Shown here: piece after piece, positions 14,257 to 45,517 of the stretch
Layout: each line of letters begins with the position of its first letter
How positions within the stretch are numbered: the stretch's first letter is position 1
Assembly: GCF_022385335.1 (NCBI RefSeq)
Contig: NZ_CP092431.1
Location: forward strand, 6,510,001-6,574,000
Reading direction: 5' to 3'
DNA length: 64,000 nucleotides
From: Streptomyces deccanensis
Lineage (GTDB): Bacteria; Actinomycetota; Actinomycetes; Streptomycetales; Streptomycetaceae
Notes under the pieces: generated by a model
Seen by the model: the letters and a program-made list of their open reading frames with translations, nothing else
Database searches by the model: none
What the model was told of the DNA's origin: nothing
Translations under genes and position numbers: made by a program

Positions 14257-14268
14257 CTACGCGCGTTA
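14257..14268. promoter_or_regulatory. Nucleoside-regulon operator, site 1 (variant)
   Basis: CTACGCGCGTTA, matching the perfect palindrome at ten of twelve positions. It lies 58 bp upstream of the first BMP lipoprotein start. Its right half overlaps a plausible -10 element (TTAATG). Confidence 0.75.
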
Positions 14269-14326
14269 ATGTGCGCCGAACTGAGCACCCGGCTGCGGGG
14301 CTTTGGAGAAGATGGGGAACTTCAAA

Positions 14327-15385
14327 ATGCGTCGGATTTCCAAACTGACCCGCGTCGCGGTGGGGGTCGCGTCGCTGGCGCTGGCCGCCACGGCCTGTGG
14401 TGGCACGAGCAGCGAGAGCGGCAACGGCGACAGCGAGACCACCAAGGGCGAAAAGGGCCTCGCGATCGCGTACGACATCGGCGGCAAGGGCGACCAGTCC
14501 TTCAACGACGCCGCGTACGCGGGCCTGGAGAAGGCTCAGAAGGAGTTCGGTTACCAGACCGAGGACATCGAGCCGACCGAGGGCGAGACGGACGCCGACA
14601 AGCAGCAGCGTCTGGAGTCCCTGGCCAAGCAGGGCTACAACCCGGTCATCGGTGTCGGCTTCGCCTACGGCCCCGCGATGGAGGCCGCGTCCAAGCAGTT
14701 CCCGGACACCACCTTCGGCATCGTGGACTCGGTCGTCGAGGGCGACAACGTCGCGTCCCTCGTCTTCGCCGAGCAGGAGGCCTCCTACCTCGCCGGTGTC
14801 GCGGCCGCCAAGGCCACCAAGACGAACACCGTGGGCTTCGTGGGCGGCGTCGACATCCCGCTCATCCACAAGTTCGAGGCCGGCTACAAGCAGGGCGTCG
14901 AGGACACCAGCGGCGGCAAGGTCAAGGTCGTCTCGCAGTACCTGACCCAGACGGCCGAGGAGGGCGGCTTCTCCAGCCCCGACAAGGGCAAGGCCGCCGC
15001 CGAGGGCCAGATCGAGAAGAACGCCGACGTCCTGTACCAGGCCGCCGGCCTCTCCGGCCAGGGTGTCATCGAGGCCGCCGCCAAGGCCAAGGTCTGGGCG
15101 ATCGGCGTCGACTCCGACCAGTACAACCAGGAGGCCCTGGCCCCCTACAAGGAGTACATCCTCACCTCCGCCCTCAAGGACGTCGGCGGCGCGGTCTACG
15201 CCCTCGCCAAGTCCGTCGAGGACGACAAGCCCCTCAAGGGCGTCCAGACCTTCGACCTGAAGGTCGACGGCGTGGGCCTCGCCGACTCCAACCCGAAGAT
15301 GGGCGAGATCGCCGGCCTCACGGACGCGGTCGCCAAGGCCAAGAAGGAAATCATCGACGGCACGATCAAGGTGAAGACCGAGTAA
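14327..15385 (+). CDS. BMP-family nucleoside-binding lipoprotein 1
   Basis: 352 residues. The signal peptide MRRISKLTRVAVGVASLALA is followed by the lipobox region ATAC, so the protein should be membrane-anchored by a diacylglyceryl cysteine. The mature part is a Bmp/PnrA fold: LAIAYDIGGKGDQSFNDAAY, TEGETDADKQQRLESLAKQG and NTVGFVGGVDIPLIHKFEAG. PnrA-type proteins bind purine nucleosides. The ATG at 14327 is chosen by alignment with the downstream paralogue and has GGGGA eight bases upstream; TTG/ATG codons just upstream are in frame. It is the extracellular receptor for the ABC importer encoded at 17-21 kb. Confidence 0.9.
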   Translation: MRRISKLTRVAVGVASLALAATACGGTSSESGNGDSETTKGEKGLAIAYDIGGKGDQSFNDAAYAGLEKAQKEFGYQTEDIEPTEGETDADKQQRLESLAKQGYNPVIGVGFAYGPAMEAASKQFPDTTFGIVDSVVEGDNVASLVFAEQEASYLAGVAAAKATKTNTVGFVGGVDIPLIHKFEAGYKQGVEDTSGGKVKVVSQYLTQTAEEGGFSSPDKGKAAAEGQIEKNADVLYQAAGLSGQGVIEAAAKAKVWAIGVDSDQYNQEALAPYKEYILTSALKDVGGAVYALAKSVEDDKPLKGVQTFDLKVDGVGLADSNPKMGEIAGLTDAVAKAKKEIIDGTIKVKTE

Positions 15386-15412
15386 CGGTCACACCTCTGC
15401 AAGTGCTGACGG

Positions 15413-15444
15413 GCGGGGCGGGTGTACACGTACACCCGCCCCGC
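15413..15444 (+). terminator. Terminator of BMP gene 1
   Basis: A perfect 14-bp stem, GCGGGGCGGGTGTA and its complement, with a CACG loop, 28 bp after the stop codon. Confidence 0.8.
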
Positions 15445-15617
15445 TCACTTGTGCCGCCCGGGTACCTCAGGGGCGCGAGGAACTGCGCGACCAGCCACAA
15501 CACACCCGCAGCCGCGACCCGGCCGAATCCACCCCCCACCACGCGCCCCCCAACCCCCGGCCACCCTTGCAACACGGCCCCATAACAACCCGGCCCACCA
15601 GGCTTCACCCGAAGGGT

Positions 15618-15629
15618 CTACGCGCGTTA
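15618..15629. promoter_or_regulatory. Nucleoside-regulon operator, site 2 (variant)
   Basis: CTACGCGCGTTA, identical to site 1. It lies 99 bp upstream of BMP gene 2 and overlaps a TTACTC-type -10 element. Confidence 0.75.
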
Positions 15630-15728
15630 CTCTGCGGCGAAAGCCATATAAGGCGCCGATGCTGTGAAGCACTACTGGTCAGTACTCTGATCCGTACCCT
15701 CCGGCGCTGTACGACAGGAGCACCACAC

Positions 15729-16781
15729 ATGCGCCGGGTTTCCCGTCTCGCGGTCGCGGGCGCAGCGACCGCCTCCCTCGCCCTCGCCCTCACCGCCTGC
15801 GGCGGCACCTCGACGGACGCCTCGTCGTCCGCCGACTCCAAGGGCGACCTGGGCCTCGCCATCGCGTACGACGTCGGCGGCAAGGGCGACCAGTCCTTCA
15901 ACGACGCGGCCTACGCGGGCCTGGAGCGGGCGAAGGAGGAGTTCGGGTACAAGACGCAGGACATCGAGCCCACCGAGGGCGAGACGGACGCCGACAAGGA
16001 GCAGCGCCTGGTCTCCCTGGCCAAGCAGGGCTACAACCCGGTCGTCGGCGTCGGCTACGCCTACGCGACGGCCGTGAAGGCCGCCGCCGAGCAGTACCCG
16101 GACACCACCTTCGGCATCGTCGACGACTCCACGGTCCAGCTGGACAACGTCGCGGACCTGGTCTTCTCCGAGGAGCAGGCCTCGTACCTCGCCGGTGTCG
16201 CGGCGGCCAAGTCCACGAAGACGAACACCGTCGGCTTCGTCGGCGGCGTGGACATCCCGCTGATCCACAAGTTCCAGGCGGGCTTCGAGCAGGGCGTCAA
16301 GGACACCAACCCCAAGGCCAAGGTGCTCACCCAGTACCTCACCCAGACGGCCGAGGAGGGCGGCTTCTCCAGCCCCGACAAGGGCAAGACCGCCGCCGAG
16401 GGCCAGATCGAGAAGAAGGCCGACGTCGTGTACGCGGCGGCCGGTCTCTCCGGTCAGGGCGTGATCGAGGCCGCCGCCGCGAACAAGATCTGGGCGATCG
16501 GCGTCGACTCCGACCAGTACGCGCAGGAAGCCCTCGCGAAGTACAAGGACTCCATCCTGACCTCGGCGACGAAGGACGTCGCCAAGGCGGTGTACAACCT
16601 GGCGAAGTCGGTCGAGGACGGTAAGCCCGCGACCGGTATCGTCAGGGGCGATCTGAAGACCGGCGAGGTCGGCCTCGCCGACTCCAACCCGAAGTTCAAG
16701 AGCGACACCGAGCTCCAGGAGGCCATCGCCACGGCCAAGGAGAAGATCATCGGCGGCGAGATCAAGGTCAGGACCAGCTGA
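15729..16781 (+). CDS. BMP-family nucleoside-binding lipoprotein 2
   Basis: 350 residues, a tandem paralogue of the preceding gene; most of the mature sequence is the same, including GGKGDQSFNDAAYAGLE and FVGGVDIPLIHKF. Signal peptide MRRVSRLAVAGAATASLALA leads into ALTAC, the lipobox. The ATG at 15729 has AGGAG eight bases upstream. The main differences are in the linker after the lipid-modified cysteine and near residues 130-140. It has its own operator upstream and its own terminator downstream. Likely an alternative receptor for the same ABC importer with a shifted nucleoside preference; that is inference. Confidence 0.9.
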   Translation: MRRVSRLAVAGAATASLALALTACGGTSTDASSSADSKGDLGLAIAYDVGGKGDQSFNDAAYAGLERAKEEFGYKTQDIEPTEGETDADKEQRLVSLAKQGYNPVVGVGYAYATAVKAAAEQYPDTTFGIVDDSTVQLDNVADLVFSEEQASYLAGVAAAKSTKTNTVGFVGGVDIPLIHKFQAGFEQGVKDTNPKAKVLTQYLTQTAEEGGFSSPDKGKTAAEGQIEKKADVVYAAAGLSGQGVIEAAAANKIWAIGVDSDQYAQEALAKYKDSILTSATKDVAKAVYNLAKSVEDGKPATGIVRGDLKTGEVGLADSNPKFKSDTELQEAIATAKEKIIGGEIKVRTS

Positions 16782-16977: not shown

Positions 16978-16989
16978 CTACGCGCGTAG
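16978..16989. promoter_or_regulatory. Nucleoside-regulon operator, site 3
   Basis: Perfect palindrome CTACGCGCGTAG upstream of the ABC-cdd-deoA operon. A TAGACG -10-like element overlaps its right edge, so a bound protein would block transcription. Confidence 0.8.
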
Positions 16990-17066
16990 ACGACCCCCCT
17001 TTCCCAGGAGAGTGCGCCATCAACGCGTCCAGCAGCCCTCCGGCCGACGCGGCGGTCAACGACTCG

Positions 17067-18670
<1,604 letters not shown>

Positions 18671-18671
<1 letters not shown>

Positions 18672-19795
18672 TGAAGAAGTTCGACAAGGAGCGGGTGCTC
18701 CTCGCCGTCGCCGGCCCGGTCCTCGCGCTCGCCGTGGCCTTCGCGCTGACCGCGATCGTGCTGCTGGCCTCCGGCAAGAACCCGGTCGAGCCGTTCTCGA
18801 TCATGTTCGAGCAGGCCTCGTTCTCCGACATCCAGGTCCGGATCATCAACCAGGCCTCGCTGTACTACATCGCGGCCCTCGCGGTGGCCATCGGCTTCCG
18901 GATGAACCTCTTCAACATCGGGGTCGACGGCCAGTACCTCCTCGGTGCCATGATCACCGCGATCGTCGGCGCCCACGTCGACCTGCCGGCCGCGATCCAG
19001 ATCCCGCTGCTGATGCTCACCGCGATCCTCACCGGCGCCTTCTGGGCCGGCATCGTCGGTGTCCTCAAGGTCACCCGGGGCGTCAGCGAGGTCGTCGCCT
19101 CGATCATGCTGAACGCGATCGCGACCTCCGTCATCGGCTACCTCTGGCTGCCGAACGTCTTCGGCGTCAAGGTCGGCAACAACAACACCACCGGCGAGAT
19201 GGCCGAGTCGGGCTGGGTGCCCGGCATCGACATGGGCAAGGCCGGCGAGATCTACGGCCTGGTCCTGCTCGCCGTCCTCCTCGGCGTCGGCTACTGGATC
19301 GTGATCAACCGCACCCGCTTCGGCTTCGACCTGCGCGCCTCCGGCGCCTCGGAGTCGGCCGCCGCCGCCAGCGGTGTCGACCCCAAGCGCATGGTCCTCA
19401 CCGCCATGCTGATCTCCGGCGGTGTCGCGGGCCTCGCGGGCCTGCCGATCCTGCTCGGCGACACCCACACCTACAGCCTCAACTTCCCCACCGGTATCGG
19501 CTTCCTCGGTATCGGCATCGCCCTCCTCGGCCGCAACAGCCCCGTCGGCATCGCCTTCGCCGCCCTGCTCTGGGCCTGGCTCGACAAGGCCTCCCCGGAG
19601 CTGGACTTCCACGGCTACGACAAGGAGATCGCGGTCATCATGCAGGGCCTGATCGTGCTCTCGGTCGTCGTCTCCTACGAGACCGTCCGCGAGTGGGGCC
19701 TGCGCCGCCAGCAGCGCCGCGTCGGCGCCGAGCTCGCCGCCGGGAACGTCCTCGGCGCCGACAACAACACCACGAAGGAGGTGGCTGGCCGATGA
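18671..19795 (+). CDS. Nucleoside ABC importer, permease 1
   Basis: 374 residues with about ten hydrophobic segments of the BPD_transp_2 family (YufP/NupB-like). Recognisable parts are ALAVAIGFRMNLFNIGVDGQ, GVSEVVASIMLNAIATSVIG and TGIGFLGIGIALLGRNSPVG. The start codon shares a base with the ATPase stop (TGATG). It pairs with the next gene to form a heterodimeric membrane channel for nucleoside import. Confidence 0.9.
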
Positions 19796-21066
19796 CCACG
19801 AGCACCACCGCGACCGACCTCAACCAGCCCTCGCTGGAGCCGACCGCCCCCACCGGGCGCAAGATGTCGCTGCCCGTGCTGCTGCTGGTCATCGCCGGCG
19901 TCCTGGCACTCACCTCGATCGTCCGCATCATCACCGGCGCCGACGGCATCACCAACGTCAGCCAGATGTCCACCGCGCTGGAACTGGCCGTCCCCATCGG
20001 CCTGGCCGGCCTCGGCGGTCTGTGGGCCGAGCGCGCGGGCGTCGTCAACATCGGCCTCGAAGGCATGATGATCCTCGGCACCTGGTTCGGTGCCTGGGCG
20101 GGCTTCCAGTACGGCCCCTGGACCGGCGTCCTGGTCGGCATCGCCGGCGGCGCGATCGGCGGCCTGCTGCACGCCTTCGTCACCGTCACCTTCAACGTCA
20201 ACCACATCGTCTCCGGTGTGGCGATCAACATCCTCGCCCTCGGCGCCACCCGCTACCTGGCGCCCCTCGCCTTCGAGGGCCACCAGGGCGGTTCGGCCAA
20301 GCAGTCCCCGCCGGTCGAGTCCATCGGTGACTTCACCATCCCGGGACTGTCGGACGCGCTGACCGAACTCAACTCCAAGGGCTGGTTCTTCGTCTCCGAC
20401 CTCGCCGGCCTGCTCGGCGGTCTGGTCACCAACGTCTCGTGGCTGACCCTCGTCGCCGTCGCCCTGGTCCCCGCCACCTGGTGGGTCCTGTGGCGCTCCG
20501 CCTTCGGTCTCCGGCTGCGCTCCTGCGGTGAGAACCCGGTCGCCGCCGAGTCCCTCGGCGTCAACGTCTACAAGTACAAGTACCTCGCCGTGATCATCTC
20601 CGGCGGGCTGGCCGGCCTCGGCGGAGCCTTCCTCTCCATCGTCGCCAACCCCTTCTACCTGGAGGGCCAGACCAGTGGCCGCGGCTTCATCGGTCTCGCC
20701 GCGATGATCTTCGGCAACTGGATGCCGGGCGGCCTCGCCCTCGGCGCCGGCCTCTTCGGCTACACCGACAGCCTCAACCTGCGCGGCGGCTCCGAGAACG
20801 TCCACGCCCTGCTCCTGCTCGGTGCCCTCCTGCTGGTCATCGGCGCGATCTGGCAGGCCGTGCGCAAGAAGTACGTCGCCGCCGCGATCACCTTCGTCGT
20901 CGGCGCCCTCGTCTTCACCTGGTACTCGACCACCAACGAGGTCCCGAACCAGGTCGTCGCCGCCACCCCGTACGTCATCACCCTGATCGTCCTCGCGCTC
21001 TCCGCCCAACGCCTTCGGATGCCGAAGGCGGACGGACTGCCGTACCGCAAGGGACAGGGCAAGTGA
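19792..21066 (+). CDS. Nucleoside ABC importer, permease 2
   Basis: 424 residues. Multi-spanning BPD_transp_2 protein (YufQ/NupC-like) with LWAERAGVVNIGLEGMMILG, HIVSGVAINILALGATRYLA and GRGFIGLAAMIFGNWMPGG. AAGGAGG precedes the ATG by about ten bases, and the ATG overlaps the previous stop (ATGA). Stop and next start overlap again (GTGA), so ATPase, permeases and cytidine deaminase are one translationally coupled unit. Confidence 0.9.
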   Translation: MTTSTTATDLNQPSLEPTAPTGRKMSLPVLLLVIAGVLALTSIVRIITGADGITNVSQMSTALELAVPIGLAGLGGLWAERAGVVNIGLEGMMILGTWFGAWAGFQYGPWTGVLVGIAGGAIGGLLHAFVTVTFNVNHIVSGVAINILALGATRYLAPLAFEGHQGGSAKQSPPVESIGDFTIPGLSDALTELNSKGWFFVSDLAGLLGGLVTNVSWLTLVAVALVPATWWVLWRSAFGLRLRSCGENPVAAESLGVNVYKYKYLAVIISGGLAGLGGAFLSIVANPFYLEGQTSGRGFIGLAAMIFGNWMPGGLALGAGLFGYTDSLNLRGGSENVHALLLLGALLLVIGAIWQAVRKKYVAAAITFVVGALVFTWYSTTNEVPNQVVAATPYVITLIVLALSAQRLRMPKADGLPYRKGQGK

Positions 21067-21470
21067 CCGCCGGCGCACCGGCCGAGGCCGACTGGGACGA
21101 GCTGCGCGCGGTCGCGCGGGACGCCATGTCCCACGCGTACGCCCCGTACTCGGGCTACCCGGTGGGCGTGGCCGCCCGGGTCGACGACGGCCGCACCGTC
21201 TCCGGCTGCAACGTCGAGAACGCCTCGTACGGCCTCGGCCTGTGCGCCGAGTGCGGACTGGTCTCGGAGCTGCAGCGCACGGGCGGCGGCAGGCTGACGC
21301 ACTTCACCTGCGTCGACGGCGAGGGCGAGATCCTCGTGCCCTGCGGCCGCTGCCGCCAACTGCTCTACGAGTTCGGTGGCCCCGGCCTCCTGCTGGAGAC
21401 CCCGGCGGGGATCGTCCCCCTCTCGGAGATGCTGCCCCAGGCCTTCGGCCCGGGCCATCTCACCAAGTAA
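21063..21470 (+). CDS. cdd: Cytidine deaminase
   Basis: 135 residues, the normal size of the homotetrameric class. Zinc and catalytic residues are visible: C61-A-E63 in LCAECG, and C94/C97 in PCGRC. NVENASYG binds the nucleoside. It converts cytidine and deoxycytidine to uridine and deoxyuridine, feeding the phosphorylase encoded next. The GTG start overlaps the permease stop, which ties import to deamination. Confidence 0.95.
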   Translation: MTAGAPAEADWDELRAVARDAMSHAYAPYSGYPVGVAARVDDGRTVSGCNVENASYGLGLCAECGLVSELQRTGGGRLTHFTCVDGEGEILVPCGRCRQLLYEFGGPGLLLETPAGIVPLSEMLPQAFGPGHLTK

Positions 21471-21477
21471 CTCCCGT

Positions 21478-21511
21478 GCGGCCCCTCCTGACGAACGGTC
21501 GGAGGGGCCGC
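21478..21511 (+). terminator. Hairpin inside the operon, between cdd and deoA
   Basis: GCGGCCCCTCC and GGAGGGGCCGC form an 11-bp stem with a 12-nt loop. It may cause partial termination or 3' end protection and set lower deoA levels. Confidence 0.55.
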
Positions 21512-21543
21512 GCACTTCCCAGAATCCGGAAGGACAGCCAGCC

Positions 21544-22827
21544 ATGGCCATGGACGCCATCTCAGTCATCCGCACCAAGCGGGACCGCGGCGAGCTCAGC
21601 GACGAGCAGATCGACTGGGTCATCGACGCCTACACCCGTGGCGAGGTCGCCGACTACCAGATGGCCGCCCTCAACATGGCGATCCTCCTCAACGGCATGG
21701 ACCGCCGCGAGATCGCCCGCTGGACCGCCGCGATGATCGCCTCCGGCGAGCGCATGGACTTCTCGTCCCTGTCCCGCCCCACCGCCGACAAGCACTCCAC
21801 CGGCGGCGTCGGCGACAAGATCACGCTGCCCCTGGCACCGCTGGTGGCGGCCTGCGGCGCGGCCGTACCCCAGCTCTCCGGGCGGGGCCTCGGCCACACC
21901 GGCGGCACCCTGGACAAGCTGGAGTCCATCCCCGGCTGGCGCGCCCTCCTGTCCAACGAGGAGATGCTGAACGTCCTGGACGAGGTCGGCGCGGTCATCT
22001 GCGCGGCGGGCGACGGCCTGGCCCCGGCGGACAAGAAGCTCTACGCCCTCCGCGACGTCACGGGAACGGTCGAGGCCATCCCGCTGATCGCCTCCTCCAT
22101 CATGTCGAAGAAGATCGCGGAGGGGACCGGCTCCCTGGTCCTGGACGTGAAGGTGGGCACGGGAGCCTTCATGAAGACCATCGAGGACGCCCGTGAGCTG
22201 GCGTCGACGATGGTGGGCCTCGGCACCGACCACGGCGTGAAGACGGTCGCCCTCCTCACGGACATGTCGACCCCGCTCGGCCTCACCGCCGGCAACGCCC
22301 TCGAAGTCCGCGAGTCGGTCGAGGTCCTGGCGGGCGGCGGCCCGGCAGACGTCGTGGAACTCACGATCGCCCTGGCCCGCGAGATGCTCGACGCGGCCGG
22401 GGTGAAGGACGCCGACCCGGCGAAGGCGCTGGCCGACGGCTCGGCGATGGACGCCTGGCGCCGCATGATCGCCGCCCAGGGCGGCGACCCGGACGCCCCG
22501 CTCCCCACCTCCCGCGAGCAGCACGTGGTGAAGGCGACCGCCTCCGGCGTCCTGACCCGCCTGGACGCCTACGACATCGGCATCGCCGCCTGGCGCCTCG
22601 GCGCCGGCCGCGCCCGCAAGGAGGACCCGGTCCAGGCCGCCGCGGGCGTCGAACTGCACGCCAAGCCCGGCGACCCGGTCACCGAGGGCCAGCCCCTGCT
22701 CACCCTGCACACCGACACACCCGAGCGCTTCGACTACGCCCTGGAGGCGGTGGAGGGCTCGTACGACATCGGGGCGCCGGGCACGGAGTTCGCGGCCTCG
22801 CCGGTGGTGCTGGAACGCATCGCCTGA
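21544..22827 (+). CDS. deoA: Thymidine phosphorylase
   Basis: 427 residues, normal for the family. Motifs: KHSTGGVGDKITLPLAPLVA (phosphate and substrate loop), SGRGLGHTGGTLDKLESIPG, and SSIMSKKIAEGTGSLVLDVK. It cleaves thymidine and deoxyuridine with phosphate to the base and deoxyribose 1-phosphate. The start ATG 21544 follows GGAAGGA. It is the last gene of the operon controlled by operator site 3 and is followed by a strong terminator. Downstream use of deoxyribose 1-phosphate is probably by the mutase at 42825 and DeoC at 38979. Confidence 0.95.
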   Translation: MAMDAISVIRTKRDRGELSDEQIDWVIDAYTRGEVADYQMAALNMAILLNGMDRREIARWTAAMIASGERMDFSSLSRPTADKHSTGGVGDKITLPLAPLVAACGAAVPQLSGRGLGHTGGTLDKLESIPGWRALLSNEEMLNVLDEVGAVICAAGDGLAPADKKLYALRDVTGTVEAIPLIASSIMSKKIAEGTGSLVLDVKVGTGAFMKTIEDARELASTMVGLGTDHGVKTVALLTDMSTPLGLTAGNALEVRESVEVLAGGGPADVVELTIALAREMLDAAGVKDADPAKALADGSAMDAWRRMIAAQGGDPDAPLPTSREQHVVKATASGVLTRLDAYDIGIAAWRLGAGRARKEDPVQAAAGVELHAKPGDPVTEGQPLLTLHTDTPERFDYALEAVEGSYDIGAPGTEFAASPVVLERIA

Positions 22828-26257: not shown

Positions 26258-26320
26258 GCCTCGAAACTACGTACGCCGAGATTCATCCGTCCAATGCATG
26301 GAACCGTCATAATCGTTCCC

Positions 26321-28259: not shown

Positions 28260-28271
28260 CTACGCGCGTAG
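28260..28271. promoter_or_regulatory. Nucleoside-regulon operator, site 4
   Basis: Perfect CTACGCGCGTAG, 16 bp upstream of the adenosine deaminase start codon and overlapping the promoter region (TTATCG may be the -10). Confidence 0.8.
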
Positions 28272-28287: not shown

Positions 28288-29451
28288 ATGACGAACCAGA
28301 CCGACCCGACCGGTACCACCCCGGACTCGGACCAGATCCGCCGGGCGCCCAAGGTTCTGCTGCACGACCACCTCGACGGCGGCCTGCGCCCCGGAACCAT
28401 CGTCGAACTCGCCCGCGACAGCGCGTACTCCCACCTCCCCGAGACCGACGCCGACCGGCTCGGCGCCTGGTTCCGCGAGGCCGCCGACTCCGGCTCCCTG
28501 GAGCGGTACCTGGAGACCTTCTCCCACACCGTCGCCGTCATGCAGACCCGCGACGCGCTCTTCCGTGTCGCCGCCGAGTGCGCCGAGGACCTCGCCGCCG
28601 ACGGCGTCGTCTACGCCGAGGTCCGCTACGCCCCCGAACAGCACCTCGACGGCGGACTCACCCTCGAACAGGTCGTCGAGGCCGTCAACGACGGCTTCCG
28701 GGAAGGCGAACGGCGGGCCAGGGCCGACGGCCACCGCATCCGCGTCGGCGCCCTGCTCACCGCCATGCGGCACGCGGCCCGCGCCCTGGAGATCGCCGAA
28801 CTCGCCAACCGCTACCGCGACCTGGGCGTCGTCGGATTCGACATCGCGGGCGCCGAGGCCGGCTACCCGCCCACCCGCCACCTCGACGCCTTCGAGTACC
28901 TCAAGCGGGAGAACAACCACTTCACCATCCACGCCGGTGAGGCCTTCGGACTCCCCTCCATCTGGCAGGCCCTGCAGTGGTGCGGCGCCGACCGGCTCGG
29001 CCACGGCGTCCGCATCATCGACGACATCCAGGTCCACGCGGACGGCTCCGTGAAGCTCGGCCGCCTCGCCTCCTACGTCCGCGACAAGCGCATCCCGCTG
29101 GAGCTGTGCCCCAGCTCCAACCTCCAGACCGGCGCCGCCCGTTCGTACGCCGAGCACCCCATCGGGCTGCTGCGGCGACTGCACTTCCGCGCCACCGTGA
29201 ACACCGACAACCGGCTGATGTCCCACACCAGCATGAGCCGCGAATTCGAGCACCTTGTCGACGCTTTCGGTTACACGCTCGACGACATGCAGTGGTTCTC
29301 GGTCAATGCTATGAAGTCAGCATTCATTCCTTTCGATGAACGACTGGCCATGATCAATGACGTGATCAAGCCCGGATACGCCGAGTTGAAATCCGAATGG
29401 CTGTTCCGTCAGACGGCTTCCACCAGCGGTTCTGTCGACGAACAGGGGTGA
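28288..29451 (+). CDS. add: Adenosine deaminase
   Basis: 387 residues. Zinc ligands and catalytic residues are in [27 protein letters not shown] (catalytic Glu), DRLGHGVRI and [11 protein letters not shown]. It deaminates adenosine and deoxyadenosine to inosine and deoxyinosine, which PNP (44657-45481) can then cleave. The ATG 16 bp after the operator has no clear ribosome binding site, so the mRNA may be nearly leaderless. The terminator stem begins at the stop codon. Confidence 0.95.
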
Positions 29452-34118: not shown

Positions 34119-34271
34119 GGGCTCATTCTGGCCCATGGCATGGCGCCGAATCGACCGTTGGAGCGCTCCCACCCGACACCCGCACACGATCGTGCCGTTC
34201 GCGTAGCCGTACGACTCTTCTCTGTGATCGACCTGTGCCCCGTCCGGGCCGCACCCAGGGGTCCGACCCCT

Positions 34272-34287
34272 GTGACAGGTCTGTGAC
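34272..34287. promoter_or_regulatory. Predicted AfsQ1 binding site (GTGAC-N6-GTGAC)
   Basis: GTGAC at 34272 and again at 34283 with a six-base spacer (AGGTCT). This agrees exactly with the reported AfsQ1 direct-repeat consensus GTnAC-n6-GTnAC. It is 97 bp upstream of sigQ and 154 bp from the afsQ1 start. Confidence 0.85.
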
Positions 34288-34383
34288 AGTCGGCGGACAG
34301 AGCCATGAAGGTGAACCGGCAATCTTCTCGGCACAGGCAAGAAAGCAAGCCGAAGACCGGAACTCCACGACGGGGGGCGCGAG

Positions 34384-36656: not shown

Positions 36657-37544
36657 TCAGTACGCCGACCCCGACGCGCCCAGCGATCCCGTCGGGTGCC
36701 AGACCGTCTTCGTCTCCAGGAACGCCGTCATGCGGTCGATGCCGGGCGTGGCCGACCAGTCGTCCACAGGCTGTGGACGCAGGACGCGCTTGAGGTTGTC
36801 GGCCGCGGCGATCTCCAGCTCCTTCGCCAGGACGTCGTCCGCGCCGGCCAGGTCGATCGCGTTGACGTCCTGGTGGGCCGCGAGGGGCGTCGCGATCTCC
36901 GACGTACGGCCCGAGAGGACGTTGACCACGCCGCCGGGGACGTCGGACGTGGCGAGGACCTCGCCGAGGGAGAGGGCCGGGAGGGGGGACCTCTCCGACG
37001 CCACGACGACCGCCGTGTTGCCCGTCGCGATCACGGGAGCCAGCACCGACACCAGGCCCAGGAACGACGAGTCCTGGGGGGCCAGGACCGCGACCACGCC
37101 CGTCGGTTCGGGGGAGGACAGGTTGAAGTACGGGCCCGCGACCGGGTTCGCGCCGCCGACCACCTGGGCGATCTTGTCGGTCCAGCCCGCGTACCAGACC
37201 CAGCGGTCGATCGTGGCTTCCACGACCGCGGCGGCCCTGGACTTCGACAGCCCCTCGGCGTCCGCGACCTCCCGTACGAACTGGCCCCTGCGGCCCTCCA
37301 GCATCTCCGCGACGCGGTACAGGACCTGGCCCCGGTTGTACGCCGTCGCGCCGGACCAGCCGCCGAACGCCTTACGGGCGGCGACGACCGCGTCGCGGGC
37401 GTCCTTGCGGGAGGAGAGCGGGGCGTTGGCCAGCCAGTTGTCCTTGGAGTCCGTCACCTCGTACACCCGGCCGCTCTCGGAACGCGGGAACTTCCCGCCG
37501 ACGTACAGCTTGTAGGTCTTGAAAACAGACAGGCGGTCAGACAT
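36657..37544 (-). CDS. Catalytically incomplete aldehyde dehydrogenase (ALDH16 second-domain type)
   Basis: 295 residues, about 60 percent of a normal ALDH. It has an NAD-binding-type half (YVGGKFPRSESGRVYEV, LAPQDSSFLGLVSVLAPVIA, GGVVNVLSGRTSEI) but stops just before the catalytic half. The general-base ELGGK segment is replaced by NLKRVLRPQPVDDW and there is no GQxC cysteine. Its start overlaps the end of the complete ALDH gene by eight bases. In ALDH16 enzymes a second, non-catalytic ALDH domain is fused after an active one; here the two are separate coupled genes. Likely a structural partner of the upstream enzyme. Confidence 0.85.
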   Translation of the reverse strand: MSDRLSVFKTYKLYVGGKFPRSESGRVYEVTDSKDNWLANAPLSSRKDARDAVVAARKAFGGWSGATAYNRGQVLYRVAEMLEGRRGQFVREVADAEGLSKSRAAAVVEATIDRWVWYAGWTDKIAQVVGGANPVAGPYFNLSSPEPTGVVAVLAPQDSSFLGLVSVLAPVIATGNTAVVVASERSPLPALSLGEVLATSDVPGGVVNVLSGRTSEIATPLAAHQDVNAIDLAGADDVLAKELEIAAADNLKRVLRPQPVDDWSATPGIDRMTAFLETKTVWHPTGSLGASGSAY

Positions 37545-38973
37545 CGAGGTACGCCTCCAGGCCGTGGCGGCCGCCCTCGCGGCCGAAGCCCGACTCCTTG
37601 TAGCCGCCGAACGGCGACGTCGGGTCGAACTTGTTGAACGTGTTGGACCAGACGACGCCCGCGCGCAGCTTGTTCGCGACGGCCAGGATCCGGGAGCCCT
37701 TCTCGGTCCAGATGCCCGCCGACAGGCCGTACTGGGTGTTGTTGGCCTTGGCGACCGCCTCGTCCGGGGTGCGGAAGGTGAGGACGGAGAGGACCGGGCC
37801 GAAGATCTCGTCACGGGCGATGGTGTGCGCCTGCGTGACGTTGGTGAAGAGCGTCGGGGCGAACCAGTAGCCGGAGGTGGGCAGTTCGCAGGCCGGGGAC
37901 CAGCGTTCGGCGCCCTCCGACTCGCCGCGCTCGACGAGCGAGGTGATCCGGGTCAGCTGCTCCTCGGAGTTGATCGCGCCGATGTCCGTGTTCTTGTCCA
38001 GCGGGTCACCGAGCCGGAGCGTGGACAGGCGGCGCTTGAGGGAGTCGAGCAGTTCGTCCTGGATCGACTCCTGGACGAGGAGGCGGCTGCCCGCGCAGCA
38101 GACCTGGCCCTGGTTGAAGAAGATGCCGTTGACGATGCCCTCGACGGCCTGGTCGATCGGGGCGTCGTCGAAGACGATGTTCGCGCCCTTGCCGCCCAGT
38201 TCCAGGGTGAGCTTCTTGCGGGTGCCCGCGACCGTCTTCGCGATCTGCTTGCCGACCGCCGTGGAGCCGGTGAACGCGACCTTGTTGACGTCCGGGTGCG
38301 CGACGAGCGCGGCGCCCGTGTCGCCGTATCCGGGGAGGATGTTGACGACACCCTTCGGGAGGCCGGCCTGGCGGCAGACGTCCGCGAAGAAGAGGGCCGA
38401 GAGGGGGGTCGTCTCGGCGGGCTTCAGGACCACCGTGTTGCCCGTCGCCAGGGCCGGGGCGATCTTCCACGCCAGCATGAGCAGCGGGAAGTTCCACGGG
38501 ATGACCTGGCCCGCCACGCCGAGGGGGCGGGGGTTCGCGCCGAAGCCGGCGTGGTCGAGCTTGTCGGCCCAGCCCGCGTAGTAGAAGAAGTGCGCCGCGA
38601 CCAGGGGGAGGTCGGCGTCGCGGGTCTCCTTGATCGGCTTGCCGTTGTCGAGGGTTTCGAGGACGGCGAGCTCGCGGGAGCGCTCCTGGATGATGCGGGC
38701 GATGCGGAAGAGGTACTTCGCGCGCTCCGCGCCGGGGAGGGCCGACCACTTCTCGAACGCCCTGCGGGCGGCCTGCACGGCGCGGTCCACGTCCGCCTCG
38801 CCCGCCTGGGCGATCTCGGAGAGGACCTCCTCGGAGGCGGGGCTGACCGTCTTGAAGACCTTGCCGTCGGCGGCCTCGGTGAACTCGCCGTCGATGAACA
38901 GGCCGTAGGAGGGGGCGATGTCGACGATCGCCCGGGACTCGGGGGCCGGTGCGTATTCGAATGCGGAAGCCAT
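37537..38973 (-). CDS. Aldehyde dehydrogenase
   Basis: 478 residues. NAD-binding VIPWNFPLLMLAWKIAPALA, VAFTGSTAVGKQI, general-base glutamate in LTLELGGKGAN (about residue 258) and catalytic cysteine in FFNQGQVCCAGSR (about residue 292) are all intact. It is encoded five bases after deoC. DeoC releases acetaldehyde from deoxyribose 5-phosphate, so oxidation of acetaldehyde to acetate is the likely job. Operator site 5 controls the three-gene operon deoC-ALDH-ALDH'. Confidence 0.92.
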   Translation of the reverse strand: MASAFEYAPAPESRAIVDIAPSYGLFIDGEFTEAADGKVFKTVSPASEEVLSEIAQAGEADVDRAVQAARRAFEKWSALPGAERAKYLFRIARIIQERSRELAVLETLDNGKPIKETRDADLPLVAAHFFYYAGWADKLDHAGFGANPRPLGVAGQVIPWNFPLLMLAWKIAPALATGNTVVLKPAETTPLSALFFADVCRQAGLPKGVVNILPGYGDTGAALVAHPDVNKVAFTGSTAVGKQIAKTVAGTRKKLTLELGGKGANIVFDDAPIDQAVEGIVNGIFFNQGQVCCAGSRLLVQESIQDELLDSLKRRLSTLRLGDPLDKNTDIGAINSEEQLTRITSLVERGESEGAERWSPACELPTSGYWFAPTLFTNVTQAHTIARDEIFGPVLSVLTFRTPDEAVAKANNTQYGLSAGIWTEKGSRILAVANKLRAGVVWSNTFNKFDPTSPFGGYKESGFGREGGRHGLEAYLDV

Positions 38974-38978: not shown

Positions 38979-39932
38979 TCAGTCCACCGTCACGTAGTCG
39001 GGGCCGGAGTAGCGGCCGGTGGCCAGCTTCTGGCGCTGCATCAGCAGGTCGTTGAGGAGCGAGGACGCGCCGAAGCGGAACCAGTGGTTGTCCAGCCAGT
39101 CCTCGCCGACGGTCTCGTTGACCAGGACGAGGAACTTGATCGCGTCCTTGGTGGTGCGGATGCCGCCGGCGGGCTTCACACCGACCTGGACGCCGGTCTG
39201 GGCGCGGAAGTCGCGCACGGCCTCCAGCATGAGGAGGGTGTTGGCGGGCGTGGCGTTCACCGCGACCTTGCCGGTGGAGGTCTTGATGAAGTCGGCGCCC
39301 GCGAGCATGCCGAGCCAGCTGGCGCGGCGGATGTTGTCGTAGGTCGAGAGCTCGCCCGTCTCGAAGATGACCTTCAGGCGGGCCGCGTCGCCGCAGGCCT
39401 CCTTCACCGCGGTGATCTCCTCGTGGACCTTGAGGTAGTTCCCCGCGAGGAACGCGCCGCGGTCGATGACCATGTCGATCTCGTCGGCGCCCGCGGAGAC
39501 GGCCTCGCGGACGTCCGCCAGCTTCACGGCGAGGGGGGCGCGGCCGGCCGGGAAGGCGGTGGCGACGGAGGCGACCTTGACGGTGGAGCCGGCGACGGCG
39601 GCCTTGGCGGCGGGCACCATGTCCGGGTAGACGCAGACCGCGGCCGTGGCGGGCGTGGTGCGGTCGGTGGGGTCGGGGAGGACCGCCTTGGCGCCGAGGG
39701 ACCGGACCTTGCCGGGGGTGTCCGCGCCTTCCAGGGTCGTCAGGTCGACCATGGAGATGGCCAGGTCGATGGCGTACGCCTTGGCGGTCGTCTTGATGGA
39801 ACGGGTGCCGAGCGAGGCGGCGCGCGCCTCCAGGCCGACCGGGTCGACGCCGGGCAGCCCGTGGAGGAAGCGGCGCAGCGTGCTGTCGGACGCGGTGACG
39901 TCGGCGAGAGCGTGGGGTGCAGCTGTGGACAT
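38979..39932 (-). CDS. deoC: Deoxyribose-phosphate aldolase
   Basis: 317 residues. Class I aldolase motifs: VCVYPDMVPAAKAAVAGS, DEIDMVIDRGAFLAGN, the Schiff-base lysine in FIKTSTGKVAVNAT and a second active-site lysine in VGVKPAGGIRTTKDA. It is a long DeoC (actinobacterial/human-like type rather than the 220-residue form). It splits 2-deoxyribose 5-phosphate into glyceraldehyde 3-phosphate and acetaldehyde. Start ATG 39932; a GTG two codons upstream may be used on a leaderless transcript. Confidence 0.94.
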   Translation of the reverse strand: MSTAAPHALADVTASDSTLRRFLHGLPGVDPVGLEARAASLGTRSIKTTAKAYAIDLAISMVDLTTLEGADTPGKVRSLGAKAVLPDPTDRTTPATAAVCVYPDMVPAAKAAVAGSTVKVASVATAFPAGRAPLAVKLADVREAVSAGADEIDMVIDRGAFLAGNYLKVHEEITAVKEACGDAARLKVIFETGELSTYDNIRRASWLGMLAGADFIKTSTGKVAVNATPANTLLMLEAVRDFRAQTGVQVGVKPAGGIRTTKDAIKFLVLVNETVGEDWLDNHWFRFGASSLLNDLLMQRQKLATGRYSGPDYVTVD

Positions 39933-39951
39933 GGTCACCAGACGAGCATAT

Positions 39952-39963
39952 CTACGCGCGTAG
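39952..39963. promoter_or_regulatory. Nucleoside-regulon operator, site 5
   Basis: Perfect CTACGCGCGTAG, 19 bp upstream of the deoC ATG. On the minus strand it runs into GATATG, a good -10 candidate. Confidence 0.8.
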
Positions 39964-41012: not shown

Positions 41013-42746
41013 ATGAGTACCGAGCTCGAACCCCAGTCCCCGCCCGGGGCCTCCCCACCGCCGCGTCCGCTGCCCGCGTACGCCGTGCCCGAGGGGTGCG
41101 TCGCCTGGAGCGGCGAGAAGTTGGAGGCCTGGGCGCGGACCCGGCCACCCCTGTGGGTGCCCGCGCGGACCCGGCCCCTGCATCTGCTCGCCGTGGTACC
41201 GGGCGGACTGATCGTCGGCTTCTGGCTGGCGAACTTCGTGGAACTGCCCGCCGCCCTCGCCGCACTGGTCCCGCTGCAACTGGTGTGGACCCTGGTCAGG
41301 CCCGAGGTCGTACGGTTCTCGGCGCCCGTACTGATGCTTCTGCTGGCCTGGTACGGCGGCTCGCACGACGTGCCGACCCTGGTGGGAGGCGTCGCCGCGA
41401 CCTTGACGTGGGCCATGGCCGAGATCCGGCTGAGCAAGCGCCGACTGCAGCGGCAGTGGGCTTCGGTCGCCGCCGAGGGGGTCACCGCCACGGTGCCGGA
41501 CGAGGTCGGGCCGCTGCGGCGCGGACGGTTCCTCATGGGGTTCGGGTGCCTGCTGACCGTGGTCGCGGTGGCGGTGCTCTCCTCCGTCTCCGGCTGGGAC
41601 GTCGCCACCGACCGGCACGAAATCACGCTCGTCGGCTGGTTCGTGGTCGGCTGGGGGCTCACCTCGCTGCTCTCCGGATGGCTGGGACGCAGGCGGGCCG
41701 CCGCGCTGCGGGGCGCGCCCGTGCCGGTGCTGCGGGTGCTCGTCCGTGACGGCGCCGACGGGGACGCCGAGGTCTTCGCCGCCGACGACGCGGACGCGCT
41801 GCGGCCGTTGTTCACCGTCGCCACCGAGGAGTGGTACGACGAAGAGGACGACGAGGACGAGCAGCGCGACGCCGGGGAGGAACGGGACGCGTTTCTCGAC
41901 GCCGTCGAGGGCGTCGACGATGACGACGACCAGCCCGGGCCCCTGCGCGAGGCCGTGCTGTACGGGGTGCCCCACGACGGGGCCGAGATCGTGATCGTCA
42001 GCGCGGCGGAGGCGCCGGAGGCGAGTCAGGAGACGGAGGCGGCCGAGGGCGGCGGTACGTCCGCCGAACTGGTCGTCGAGTCGTCCAGCGGGCCGGTGCG
42101 CCCCCTGTCCGAGCGGGCCGTACGGCACCGGGCCGCCGCGCAGCGGGCCAGGGCGAAGCGGCACACGGTCCACGAGGAGCTGCGGGCCACGGCCGTCACG
42201 GAGAGCCGGGCCCGGCTCGGGGACGAGCCGGTGTCCGTACGGCGCTGGCGGGCGGGCTGGGCCGACTGGTCCGCCGCCCTGTTCATGATCGTCACGATGG
42301 CCGCCGTGGGGCTGTACCCGGACGGACTGTGGCAGTACGTCCTCGGTGGCGTCCTCGGTGTCCTGGGCGTCCTGACGCTGCCCCAGATGCTCACCTGGCG
42401 CATCACGGCCGACCGTTCGGGGCTGTGGCTGAGCGGCTGGGGCCGGCCGCAGCACGTCGAGTGGGACGACCTCACGACCGTGCGCTGCGCCGGTGCCGTG
42501 CTGACGGTGGACAGCCGCCGGGCGTCGTTCCCGCTCTGGAGCGTCCGGGCGGAGCGCTGGCGCTGGTTGGAGCGGAAGCTGCGGCTCGTTCACCCGTACG
42601 AGAGGACCGCCGCCGAGATCACCGCCATGTGGCGGGACCCGGCGCTGCGGCCCGAGGGGGAGTACCAGGGCCGGAGGATGCCCTTGTGGCCGTTGAGCGT
42701 GGTGCTCGCCGTGGGGTGGGCGGCGGTGTTGGTCCTGGTGCCGTAG
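41013..42746 (+). CDS. Large PH-like domain membrane protein
   Basis: 577 residues. N-terminal membrane block (about 60-230) with four or more spans, then an acidic stretch (EEWYDEEDDEDEQRDAGEER), a basic helix (RHRAAAQRARAKRH), two more spans near residue 430, and a PH-like beta domain (LTWRITADRSGLWLSGWGRP, HVEWDDLTTVRCAGAVLTVD). A final span closes the protein. It follows the smaller PH protein in the same orientation, and both may act in the same envelope function, which is unknown. Confidence 0.75.
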   Translation: MSTELEPQSPPGASPPPRPLPAYAVPEGCVAWSGEKLEAWARTRPPLWVPARTRPLHLLAVVPGGLIVGFWLANFVELPAALAALVPLQLVWTLVRPEVVRFSAPVLMLLLAWYGGSHDVPTLVGGVAATLTWAMAEIRLSKRRLQRQWASVAAEGVTATVPDEVGPLRRGRFLMGFGCLLTVVAVAVLSSVSGWDVATDRHEITLVGWFVVGWGLTSLLSGWLGRRRAAALRGAPVPVLRVLVRDGADGDAEVFAADDADALRPLFTVATEEWYDEEDDEDEQRDAGEERDAFLDAVEGVDDDDDQPGPLREAVLYGVPHDGAEIVIVSAAEAPEASQETEAAEGGGTSAELVVESSSGPVRPLSERAVRHRAAAQRARAKRHTVHEELRATAVTESRARLGDEPVSVRRWRAGWADWSAALFMIVTMAAVGLYPDGLWQYVLGGVLGVLGVLTLPQMLTWRITADRSGLWLSGWGRPQHVEWDDLTTVRCAGAVLTVDSRRASFPLWSVRAERWRWLERKLRLVHPYERTAAEITAMWRDPALRPEGEYQGRRMPLWPLSVVLAVGWAAVLVLVP

Positions 42747-42765
42747 GGCCGGGCCGGTACGCGCG

Positions 42766-42824: not shown

Positions 42825-44456
42825 TCAGATGCCCGCTGCCGCCGAGAGGTCCCGCTTGATGTCGGTCAGCAGGTCCGTCGCCTTCGCGCGGGCCGCCGGG
42901 AGGGCGGCGAGGTCGGCGACGGGCACCACGACCTCCAGGTAGCACTTGAGCTTGGGCTCCGTGCCGCTGGGGCGGACGATCACACGCGCGCCGTCGAGCG
43001 TGTAACGCAGGCCGTCCGTGGGCGGGAGCCGGTCCGTGCCCCGGGTCAGGTCCTCGGCCCGGGTGACGGGCAGGCCCGCGAGGGCGGTCGGCGGCTGCTC
43101 GCGGAGCCGTTCCATCGCGCGGGCGATGAGCGAGAGGTCCTGGACGCGGACCGAGAGCTGGTCGGTGGCGTGCAGACCGTGCTCGACGGCGATGTCGTCC
43201 AGCAGGTCGAGGAGGGTGCGGCCCTCCTCCTTCAGCCGCGAGGCGAGTTCCGTGATGAGCAGGGCCGCCGTGATGCCGTCCTTGTCGCGGACGCCCTCGG
43301 GATCGACGCAGTAGCCGAGGGCCTCCTCGTAGCCGTAGCGCAGGCCCTCGACGCGGGCGATCCACTTGAAGCCGGTGAGGGTCTCCTCGTAGGGCAGGCC
43401 CGCCTTCTCGGCGATCCGGCCGAGGAGGGACGAGGAGACGATCGACTCGGCGAAGGTGCCCTGGACACCGCGCGCGACCAGGTGGGTGGCGAGGAGCGCG
43501 CCGACCTCGTCGCCGCGCAGCATGCGCCAGTCGGAGCCGTCCTTGACCGCGACGGCACAGCGGTCGGCGTCGGGGTCGTTCGCGACGATCAGGTCGGGGT
43601 CCGTCTCGCGGGCCTTCGCGAAGGCCAGGTCCATCGCGCCGGGCTCTTCCGGGTTGGGGAAGGCGACCGTCGGGAACTCCGGGTCCGGCTCGGCCTGCTC
43701 GGCGACGAGGACGGGCTCCGGGAAGCCGGCCCGGGCGAAGGCCGCGAGCAGGGTGTCCTTGCCGACGCCGTGCATGGCCGTGTAGACCGTGCGGGCGCTC
43801 CGGGGGGAGCCGGGCGCGAGGACCGCGTCCGTACGGGCCAGATAGGCGTCCAGGACGCTGTCGTCGAGGGTGTCCCAGCCGGCCTCCGGGCGGGGGACGT
43901 CGTCGAGGGAGCGTACGGCGTCGATCTCGGCCGCGATGCCCGCGTCGGCCGGGGGCACGATCTGGGAGCCGTCGCCCAGGTAGACCTTGTAGCCGTTGTC
44001 GCGCGGCGGGTTGTGGCTGGCCGTGACCTCCACGCCGGCCACCGCGCCCAGGTGCCTTATGGCGAAGGCCAGGACGGGCGTGGGGAGGGGGCGGGGGAGG
44101 ACGGCCGCGCGCAGGCCCGCGCCGGTCATCACGGCGGCCGTGTCGCGGGCGAAGTCGGCGGACTTGTGGCGGGCGTCGTAGCCGATGACGACGAGGCCGC
44201 CGGTGGCGCCCTGCTTGTTCAGGTACGCGGCGAGGCCGGCGGCCGCGCGGATGACGACCGAGCGGTTCATGCGCATGGGGCCGGCGCCGAGTTCGCCCCG
44301 GAGACCGGCCGTGCCGAACTGGAGGGTGCCGGAGAAGCGGGTGGTCAGTTCCGCCGTGTCCGCCGCGTCGATCAGCCTGCCGAGCTCGTCCCGGGTGTCC
44401 GGGTCGGGGTCCTCGGCCAGCCACGCCTTGGCGCGGGCGATCAGGTCGTCGTGCAC
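42825..44456 (-). CDS. Phospho-sugar mutase (PGM2/PgcA-like; possible phosphopentomutase)
   Basis: 543 residues. Active-site serine loop VEVTASHNPPRDNGYKVYLG, metal loop VANDPDADRCAVAV, sugar loop EEALGYCVDP and phosphate loop VIVRPSGTEPKLKCY give the full alpha-D-phosphohexomutase set. The TASHNPPxxNGYKVY form is that of the PGM2/PgcA clade, which includes human phosphopentomutase. GTG 44456 has AGAGG nine bases upstream. It lies 200 bp upstream of the PNP gene's 3' end. Interconversion of (deoxy)ribose 1- and 5-phosphate would link PNP and DeoA to DeoC; a phosphoglucomutase or phosphomannomutase role is the alternative. Confidence 0.85.
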   Translation of the reverse strand: MHDDLIARAKAWLAEDPDPDTRDELGRLIDAADTAELTTRFSGTLQFGTAGLRGELGAGPMRMNRSVVIRAAAGLAAYLNKQGATGGLVVIGYDARHKSADFARDTAAVMTGAGLRAAVLPRPLPTPVLAFAIRHLGAVAGVEVTASHNPPRDNGYKVYLGDGSQIVPPADAGIAAEIDAVRSLDDVPRPEAGWDTLDDSVLDAYLARTDAVLAPGSPRSARTVYTAMHGVGKDTLLAAFARAGFPEPVLVAEQAEPDPEFPTVAFPNPEEPGAMDLAFAKARETDPDLIVANDPDADRCAVAVKDGSDWRMLRGDEVGALLATHLVARGVQGTFAESIVSSSLLGRIAEKAGLPYEETLTGFKWIARVEGLRYGYEEALGYCVDPEGVRDKDGITAALLITELASRLKEEGRTLLDLLDDIAVEHGLHATDQLSVRVQDLSLIARAMERLREQPPTALAGLPVTRAEDLTRGTDRLPPTDGLRYTLDGARVIVRPSGTEPKLKCYLEVVVPVADLAALPAARAKATDLLTDIKRDLSAAAGI

Positions 44457-44571
44457 GGGGGTCAACCTCTCGTCTCGTTCTTTGTTCGTCGGGGCGCTTG
44501 ATTGTCCCGGGGAGGGGGCGCGTTGTCGGGTGCGGGTGGGTGGGGCTTCTCGCGCAGTTCCCCGCGCCCCT

Positions 44572-44601
44572 GAAAAGCAGGGGCTGCGCCCCGTGCTTTT
44601 C
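44572..44601. terminator. Hairpin downstream of PNP
   Basis: GAAAAGCAGGGGC pairs with GCCCCGTGCTTTTC (one bulged C, TGC loop). Read on the minus strand it follows the PNP stop and is next to a dispersed-element copy. Confidence 0.65.
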
Positions 44602-44656
44602 GCCCCTAAAGGGCCGCAGGCTTCCGCACCCGACGACGAGACCCGCGCCCCGCGTC

Positions 44657-45481
44657 CTACAGGCGGTTCAGGACCTGCGTCAGCAGCGCGCCCATCCGTG
44701 CCGCCGAGTCGCGGCCGGCCTGGAGGACCTCTTCGTGGTTGAGGGGCTCGCCCGTCATGCCGGCCGCCAGGTTGGTCACCAGGGAGATGCCCAGGATCTC
44801 GGCACCCGCCTCGCGCGCGGCGATGGCCTCCAGGACCGTGGACATGCCGACGAGGTCCGCGCCGATGACGCGGGCCATGCGGATCTCCGCCGGGGTCTCG
44901 TAGTGCGGGCCCGTGAACTGCGCGTAGACGCCCTCTTCGAGGGAGGGGTCGATCTCCTTGCACAGGGCGCGCAGTCGCGGGGAGTAGAGGTCCGTGAGAT
45001 CGACGAAGTTGGCGCCGACGATCGGCGAGGTCGCCGTCAGGTTCAGGTGGTCGCTGATCAGCACCGGCTGGCCCGGACGCATGCCCTCGCGCAGACCGCC
45101 GCAGCCGTTGGTGAGGACGATCGTCTTCACACCGGCGGCGACGGCCGTGCGGACGCCGTGCGCGACGGCGGCGACGCCGCGGCCCTCGTAGTAGTGGGTG
45201 CGGCCCAGGAAGACGAGCGCGCGCTTGTCACCGATCCTGTACGAGCGGACCTTGCCGCCGTGCCCCTCGACCGCCGGCGGCGGGAAGCCGGGCAGCTCGG
45301 TGACCTGGAACTCGGCCTCGGGGGCGCCGAGGGCGTCCACGGCCGGAGCCCAGCCGGAGCCCATCACGAGGGCGACGTCGTGGGTCTCGGCGCCCGTCAG
45401 CTCACGCAGGCGCGCGGCGGCGGCGTCGGCGGCGGCGTACGGGTCGCCCTGGATGTCGTCCGGAAGAAGAGATGCGTTCAC
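44657..45481 (-). CDS. Purine-nucleoside phosphorylase
   Basis: 274 residues, trimeric (class II) PNP. Motifs: [14 protein letters not shown] (phosphate loop), [47 protein letters not shown] and [20 protein letters not shown]. It splits inosine, guanosine and their deoxy forms to base and (deoxy)ribose 1-phosphate. GTG start at 45481, with GGATAC as probable -10 on the minus strand just upstream, suggesting a leaderless mRNA. Operator site 6 lies 24 bp upstream. Confidence 0.94.
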
Positions 45482-45505
45482 GCGACGAGGGTATCCGGTT
45501 GGAGC

Positions 45506-45517
45506 CTACGCGCGTAG
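45506..45517. promoter_or_regulatory. Nucleoside-regulon operator, site 6
   Basis: Perfect CTACGCGCGTAG. Relative to the predicted PNP -10 (45491-45496) it covers the -35 region. Confidence 0.8.

Follow-up and report, generated by a model that had tools for sequence, protein, structure and literature searches.

In Escherichia coli, DeoR controls deoCABD, nupG and tsx from a 16-bp AT-rich palindromic operator, with deoxyribose-5-phosphate as the effector, and PurR and CytR are members of the LacI family. In Bacillus subtilis, a DeoR of the SorC family represses dra-nupC-pdp and is relieved by deoxyribose-5-phosphate. In Streptomyces coelicolor, XdhR represses the purine salvage genes xdhABC and has ppGpp as effector (PMC6627660; this and the other papers cited are drawn on in excerpt). 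The subject of the present analysis is a 12-bp palindrome, CTACGCGCGTAG, with its asymmetric variant CTACGCGCGTTA and a linked gene for a DeoR-family regulator, in a stretch of 64,000 nucleotides (the window, positions 6,510,001–6,574,000) of the single-contig 10.1-Mb genome of Streptomyces deccanensis.

As in the E. coli DeoR system, a DeoR-family protein with a sugar-phosphate sensor is present, and the predicted targets include deoC, thymidine phosphorylase, purine nucleoside phosphorylase and nucleoside uptake. Unlike in E. coli, the operator is unrelated, the protein scores below the NCBIfam cut-offs for DeoR and AgaR, and the putative targets add a nuclease, a 5'-nucleotidase, an ABC-type importer and purSQL. 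The likeness to PurR and CytR lies in a palindromic operator with a central CG at purine-synthesis or nucleoside genes; here, however, the cluster proteins scanned included none of LacI type, and one operator family spans both catabolism and purSQL. The B. subtilis system is matched in the repression of nucleoside catabolism and its relief by deoxyribose-5-phosphate, as proposed here, but the protein belongs to another family, and a dispersed regulon takes the place of a single local operon. XdhR is comparable as a repressor that acts in purine salvage in Streptomyces, although its target differs; the excerpted text makes no connection to the palindrome (PMC6627660). A search of the open literature, at the level of abstract openings, yielded, among the papers listed, no description recognised as this operator or regulon. 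The operator, its occurrence throughout the family and the combination of nucleic-acid breakdown with purSQL would be new, whereas nucleoside regulons under DeoR-type repressors are of a known kind.

Results

The palindrome in the window and in the genome

Perfect copies of CTACGCGCGTAG were found at positions 16978, 28260, 39952 and 45506 of the window, and CTACGCGCGTTA at 14257 and 15618, all of them at the places that an original prediction made from the DNA letters had given. Its estimate of 0.007 perfect copies expected by chance agrees with independent-base arithmetic at the 71.4% GC used here, and the downstream nucleoside genes are, by Pfam profiles, those that it named. The sites and genes are listed below; the start positions of several cluster genes are approximate.

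14257..14268, forward: operator CTACGCGCGTTA before BMP receptor 1; its TA opens the -10-like TAATGT
14303..15385, forward: BMP/PnrA-type nucleoside receptor lipoprotein 1 (Pfam Bmp)
15618..15629, forward: operator CTACGCGCGTTA before BMP receptor 2; its TA opens the -10-like TACTCT
15738..16781, start approximate (open reading frame 15567-16781), forward: BMP/PnrA-type nucleoside receptor lipoprotein 2 (Pfam Bmp)
16978..16989, forward: operator CTACGCGCGTAG before the ABC operon (motif scan)
17013..22827, forward: ABC ATPase, two permeases, cytidine deaminase and thymidine phosphorylase, a likely operon (Pfam)
26294-27328: LysR-type regulator gene near adenosine deaminase
28260..28271, forward: operator CTACGCGCGTAG before adenosine deaminase (motif scan, conservation)
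28288..29451, forward: adenosine deaminase (NCBIfam NF006847, above cut-off)
31843-35151: histidine kinase, response regulator (33441-34496) and ECF sigma factor
36657..38973, reverse: aldehyde dehydrogenase (37537-38973), probably followed downstream by a second one, as suggested by a weak further aldehyde dehydrogenase match in relatives
38979..39932, reverse: deoxyribose-phosphate aldolase deoC (Pfam DeoC; 317-residue frame)
39952..39963, reverse: operator CTACGCGCGTAG within the spacer of the deoC promoter, with the -10-like TATGCT one base beyond
42825..44480, reverse: phosphoglucomutase/phosphomannomutase family (Pfam), probable phosphopentomutase, downstream of the phosphorylase
44657..45481, reverse: purine nucleoside phosphorylase (NCBIfam TIGR01698, above cut-off)
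45506..45517, reverse: operator CTACGCGCGTAG before purine nucleoside phosphorylase (motif scan, conservation)
47917..48897, forward: DeoR-family regulator, candidate repressor (Pfam DeoRC and HTH_DeoR; GTG start inferred from conservation)

Counted on the sequence, five genes start about 16–34 bp from their site, and the second BMP gene about 108 bp from its own. A further two-mismatch match, GTACGCGCGGAG at 42757, lies 10 bp past the end of the open reading frame 41013-42746 and not at a start. With at most one mismatch, TACGCGCGTA was observed eight times in the window against 1.27 expected, a number reached in none of 100 shuffles. The excess of matches with two mismatches was weak (7 vs 3.66; 8 of 100 shuffles reached 7), and the strength of the signal therefore rests on the perfect copies. 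All four copies of CTACGCGCGTAG in the whole genome fall inside the window, and the reversed pattern used as control is absent; CTACGCGCGTTA occurs exactly twice, at both BMP genes. A genome-wide scan for one-mismatch copies was rejected as stand-alone evidence since it was close to background, with 33 places compared with 23 for the reversed pattern, and such matches were counted only where orthologues retain them.

Scans using the 12-mer meet a trap in ribosomal DNA. Six of 29 imperfect genome matches share an identical 32-bp context, CTGCGCGCGTAG (loci L007, L008, L015, L093, L099 and L104); the two that were scanned, L007 and L093, fall in 23S rRNA, as presumably do the other four.

Spread across genomes

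Exact copies were counted in other genomes against the reversed pattern of the 12-mer. In 150 Streptomyces genomes there were 573 copies against 69 of the control (mean 3.82 vs 0.46), with a range of 2–6 per genome (control 0–3) and at least two in all 150. A class-wide sample had the 12-mer in 26 of 26 Streptomyces genomes and in 9 of 220 others, and it was present in 32 of 32 genomes chosen from 15 other genera of the Streptomycetaceae. The asymmetric CTACGCGCGTTA was found in 141 of 150 genomes of the family, with the control mostly at zero. Extra perfect sites occur in single genomes (loci L026, L031, L086, L396, L204, L397, L210, L225, L216 and L408), and two lie in a genome outside the family, G211 (L398 and L399); none of these matched any of the regulon queries. 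Given a control of about 0.46 per genome, many of the extra single-genome sites are likely due to chance.

Conservation among orthologous clusters

The cluster was compared in 20 genomes of 9 genera including the window, over a span from 200 bp upstream to 30 bp downstream of each start. Of the 19 added clusters, nine are from Streptomyces picked from the list of motif hits, and thus carry perfect copies by choice; the other ten are from eight other genera. Adenosine deaminase was preceded by a perfect site in 19 of 19 genomes. In all 20, deoC had a site (13 perfect, 7 with one mismatch), as did purine nucleoside phosphorylase (15 and 5). BMP starts were examinable in 15 genomes and all had a site, in either row 11 CTACGCGCGTTA, 2 CTACGCGCGTTT and 2 CTACGCGCGTAC; the rows for BMP1 and BMP2 represent the same gene in 12 of the 15. 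The ABC ATPase gene had a site in fewer genomes (4 perfect and 2 with one mismatch among 16, ten having none). In genomes G482 and G483 the transporter is only distantly related (46–47% identity for the ABC protein, 28–36% for the permeases), yet a site still stands before the receptor or its place.

As a control, 305 starts of 19 other cluster genes, some of them internal to operons, were scanned. There was no perfect site; three starts had one mismatch and five had two. The three are all of thymidine phosphorylase; the five comprise two of thymidine phosphorylase, one of the histidine kinase and two of the ECF sigma factor. Thymidine phosphorylase had a site with at most two mismatches in 5 of 18 genomes. 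A common operator precedes most uptake and breakdown units and is kept among orthologues, as a nucleoside-catabolism regulon requires. The prediction that one operator family marks the units of nucleoside use is borne out by these clusters and control starts, and the outcome that was to refute it, a lack of conservation upstream of orthologues, was not what was found. The palindrome almost certainly marks a conserved regulon for nucleoside use.

Sites beyond the cluster

Orthologues of distal genes were sampled by protein, independently of the motif. The variant CTACGCGCGTTG was found upstream of the 5'-nucleotidase gene in 30 of 30 fetched orthologues, the gene itself being present in 45 of 46 genomes. 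A nuclease resembling ExeM/NucH (180.9 bits, below the model cut-off of 300) occurs in 5 of the 46 genomes, and a one-mismatch site precedes 5 of 5 orthologues; one further genome has a perfect site upstream of such a gene (L400). A site was found at purS in all 31 loci of a set made of 30 loci from the 46 genomes and the initial locus. Outside the family, purS was found in 23 of 29 loci (six gave none), and 0 of 23 had a site with at most two mismatches. In about 40 kb around purSQL, the purS site was the only match with at most one mismatch in 9 of 10 genomes, and G007 had none at that level; three of these ten regions also contain a palindrome CTGCGCGCGCAG. The regulon, judged by these conserved variants, is wider than the six linked units and not local as originally proposed.

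At 30 of the 31 purS loci the site is not the perfect palindrome (29 differ by one base and 1 by two), and most of the purS rows shown share an AA/ATTT-like flank that is unseen at other sites. A separate purine-synthesis repressor might act at purS, while DeoR or another protein controls the nucleoside genes. This is compatible with a DeoR-type repressor at the nucleoside genes, and it is a serious possibility, albeit one that we regard as rather doubtful. The core CTAC-CG-GTAG is identical, the one purS site at L062 is perfect, and the purS site has the same family limit as the nucleoside sites. On these grounds we lean slightly towards the same binder at purS as at the nucleoside genes.

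Several further matches may belong to the regulon. One-mismatch sites lie near the starts of genes for a xanthine/uracil permease (L109), an M23 peptidase (L094) and RpoB (rpoB, L100), which are candidate targets, and two close one-mismatch copies lie near an M17 aminopeptidase gene (L012/L013). In a second adenosine deaminase (L110:1562-2638 and orthologues) the 12-mer is found within the first codons in 7 of 13 sequences with no or one mismatch, and the other six lack it; it may be an intragenic operator or a coding coincidence, and the gene is not an established target.

Promoter geometry and probable mode of action

With the operator read in the orientation of the gene, -10 boxes were assigned by the pattern TANNNT. 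At deoC, the site fills the promoter spacer; in all 20 genomes TATGCT stands one base beyond it, and 6 of them have TGTACA 17 bp farther upstream. At adenosine deaminase, TANNNT begins at +4 from the site in 18 of 19 genomes and at +3 in the remaining one. At the phosphorylase, it lies 12 bases after the site in 14 of 20 genomes and 10 bases after in one, and a TAGGCT-like hexamer is found four bases after the site at the 5'-nucleotidase. At the BMP genes, the TA of CTACGCGCGTTA itself opens a TANNNT (10 of 13 cases in one row, 10 of 14 in the other; the rows overlap). The asymmetric BMP sites most plausibly represent an operator fused with a -10 box. These sites had been described as ten-of-twelve copies; the positions hold, but mere degeneracy does not account for their presence in 141 of the 150 family genomes or for a TA that apparently begins the -10 box.

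Since the site lies over the core promoter, at a constant offset from the -10 box, a bound protein would block the polymerase, and repression by occlusion is the likely mode of action. The perfect self-complementarity of the 12-mer and its clustering within 28.5 kb could also befit a structural or organisational DNA element that is no operator. This is hardly credible in view of the gene-specific placement at a fixed distance from -10-like boxes, and of the conserved distal copies at functionally matching genes.

The candidate repressor

The DeoR-family protein of the window matches PF08220 (HTH_DeoR) and PF00455 (DeoRC) above the gathering cut-offs. Its sole match in the PDB below an E-value of 0.001 is 7l6l, a deoxyribose operon repressor, with which its sensor motifs GTTT and DHxKxG align. 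Against the E. coli-type DeoR equivalog NF007961 it scored 75.9 bits (cut-off 244). The protein co-extends with the palindrome: it was found with 87–100% identity in all 87 Streptomyces genomes of an order-level sample and with 83–95% in all 32 genomes chosen from 15 other genera, while among 12 genomes of other families eight had a match at 40–46% and four had none at the threshold. Linkage was examined in the best 80 of 509 relatives (97–100% identity, nearly all from Streptomyces). A perfect site lies 1.7–2.8 kb upstream of deoR in 78 of these 80 loci, including all 73 with at least 4.5 kb of upstream DNA. Across 60 loci of 16 genera, 53 of 54 positions of the helix-turn-helix (HTH) domain (residues 1–54) are invariant, against 103 of 154 in the sensor and 12 of 47 in the tail. 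A paralogue (about 44–48% identity) and order-level homologues yielded no shared informative palindrome that could be a family-typical operator.

Upstream of deoR (window 47800-47917) stands a strongly conserved block of its own around GTTACTGTCAGTTTCGTG. It is unrelated to the 12-mer, and another regulator may act there.

DeoR had been put forward as the only linked candidate. LysR, two-component and ECF sigma factor genes are linked too. The histidine kinase, response regulator and ECF sigma factor lie within the cluster in 20 of 20 clusters fetched and look like AfsQ2, AfsQ1 and SigQ. SigQ is SCO4908 in S. coelicolor (PMC11538686). The response regulator has a median identity of 95%, with 69 of 78 C-terminal positions invariant in the 20 genomes. 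It, too, is highly conserved, so that invariance alone does not single out DeoR, and our confidence in DeoR was lowered accordingly. Regulators of its winged-helix type, however, usually bind direct repeats, and a GTNAC repeat is ascribed to the AfsQ1 type. In most of the clusters fetched the LysR-type gene adjoins adenosine deaminase and the operator lies between the two; in the window, though, it is divergent beside an MFS gene, and a site with at most two mismatches was found at 0 of 18 LysR starts. The HTH of LysR is variable (24 of 57 positions invariant in 19 genomes), whereas that of DeoR is invariant at 54 of 54 positions in 18 cluster genomes. The binding box of LysR-type regulators is T-N11-A, and the 12-mer has no such pair. 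It is improbable that either of these two is the binder. Among the linked regulators surveyed, the DeoR-type protein is the best candidate and more likely than not the binder, and that part of the earlier proposal stands.

A model of the regulon

In the model proposed, a dimer of the DeoR-type protein (47917-48897) would sit on CTACGCGCGTAG in or across the core promoter and block RNA polymerase. When nucleosides enter, deoxyribose-5-phosphate or ribose-5-phosphate would bind the sugar-phosphate sensor domain and release DeoR. Release would open secreted nucleic-acid degradation by the 5'-nucleotidase and, in some strains, the ExeM/NucH-like nuclease; it would also open uptake by the BMP receptors and the ABC transporter, deamination, phosphorolysis, and breakdown by DeoC and aldehyde dehydrogenase. 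The purSQL genes would join the circuit through their variant site. We hold with moderate confidence to the whole of a DeoR-type protein that represses, via the 12-bp operator, a family-wide regulon of nucleoside and nucleic-acid use from which pentose phosphates release it. That one such repressor couples extracellular nucleic-acid degradation, nucleoside import and breakdown, and purSQL under pentose phosphates throughout the Streptomycetaceae is a more tentative proposal, which we find somewhat less probable than its negation.

A number of observations weigh against the model. The ABC operon has a site in only 6 of 16 genomes, the purS site carries a varying mismatch, and 5 of 20 phosphorylase promoters have no TANNNT at the offset. 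NCBIfam AgaR outscores DeoR for the protein, both being below cut-off. No binding or expression data for the regulon were recognised in the open literature searched, as far as abstract openings tell. Many local repressors regulate themselves, yet the 250 bp upstream of deoR held no site with at most two mismatches in 60 of 60 loci (six had one with three). The survey of regulators covered the cluster neighbourhood only. The last two points would suit a regulon with the same operator but an unlinked binder, for instance of the LacI family, whose operators often carry a central CG, with DeoR in control of something else. We consider this unlikely, as the invariance of the DeoR HTH, the family-restricted co-extension and the tight linkage favour DeoR, and its sensor resembles that of the deoxyribose operon repressor.

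By presumed synteny, the window would match the SCO4884-SCO4920 region of S. coelicolor, and its DeoR would be the orthologue of SCO4920. This last, a DeoR-family regulator, is down-regulated in glucose relative to agar in S. coelicolor (PMC4848846). In another excerpted study, SCO4920 centres a co-expression module that is not tied to nucleosides (PMC3224704), which also counts against the model. In an argR mutant, the deoxyribose-phosphate aldolase SCO4914 was under-represented, and the genes for a secreted nucleotidase (SCO2015) and an adenosine deaminase (SCO5662) were raised (PMC3293853), which suggests that other regulators also act on such genes.

In Streptomyces, old hyphae die and yield extracellular nucleic acid, and aerial hyphae then grow on the remains. 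If the DeoR model is true, a single circuit would tie purine supply to the reuse of DNA that dying hyphae leave, and the nucleoside-use regulon would offer a direct handle on both. Purine supply, in turn, feeds ppGpp and antibiotic production (PMC6627660). A function is thereby proposed for an almost invariant regulator, no characterisation of which was recognised in the open literature searched.

The start of the ABC ATPase gene

Where the start of the ABC ATPase gene is expected after the promoter (window 17000-17030, forward strand), there is no ATG, GTG or TTG. In 9 of 10 genomes with a match from residue 1, the triplets TGC GCC ATC come after a GGAG-type ribosome site. It is possible that ATC serves as the start codon of this gene.

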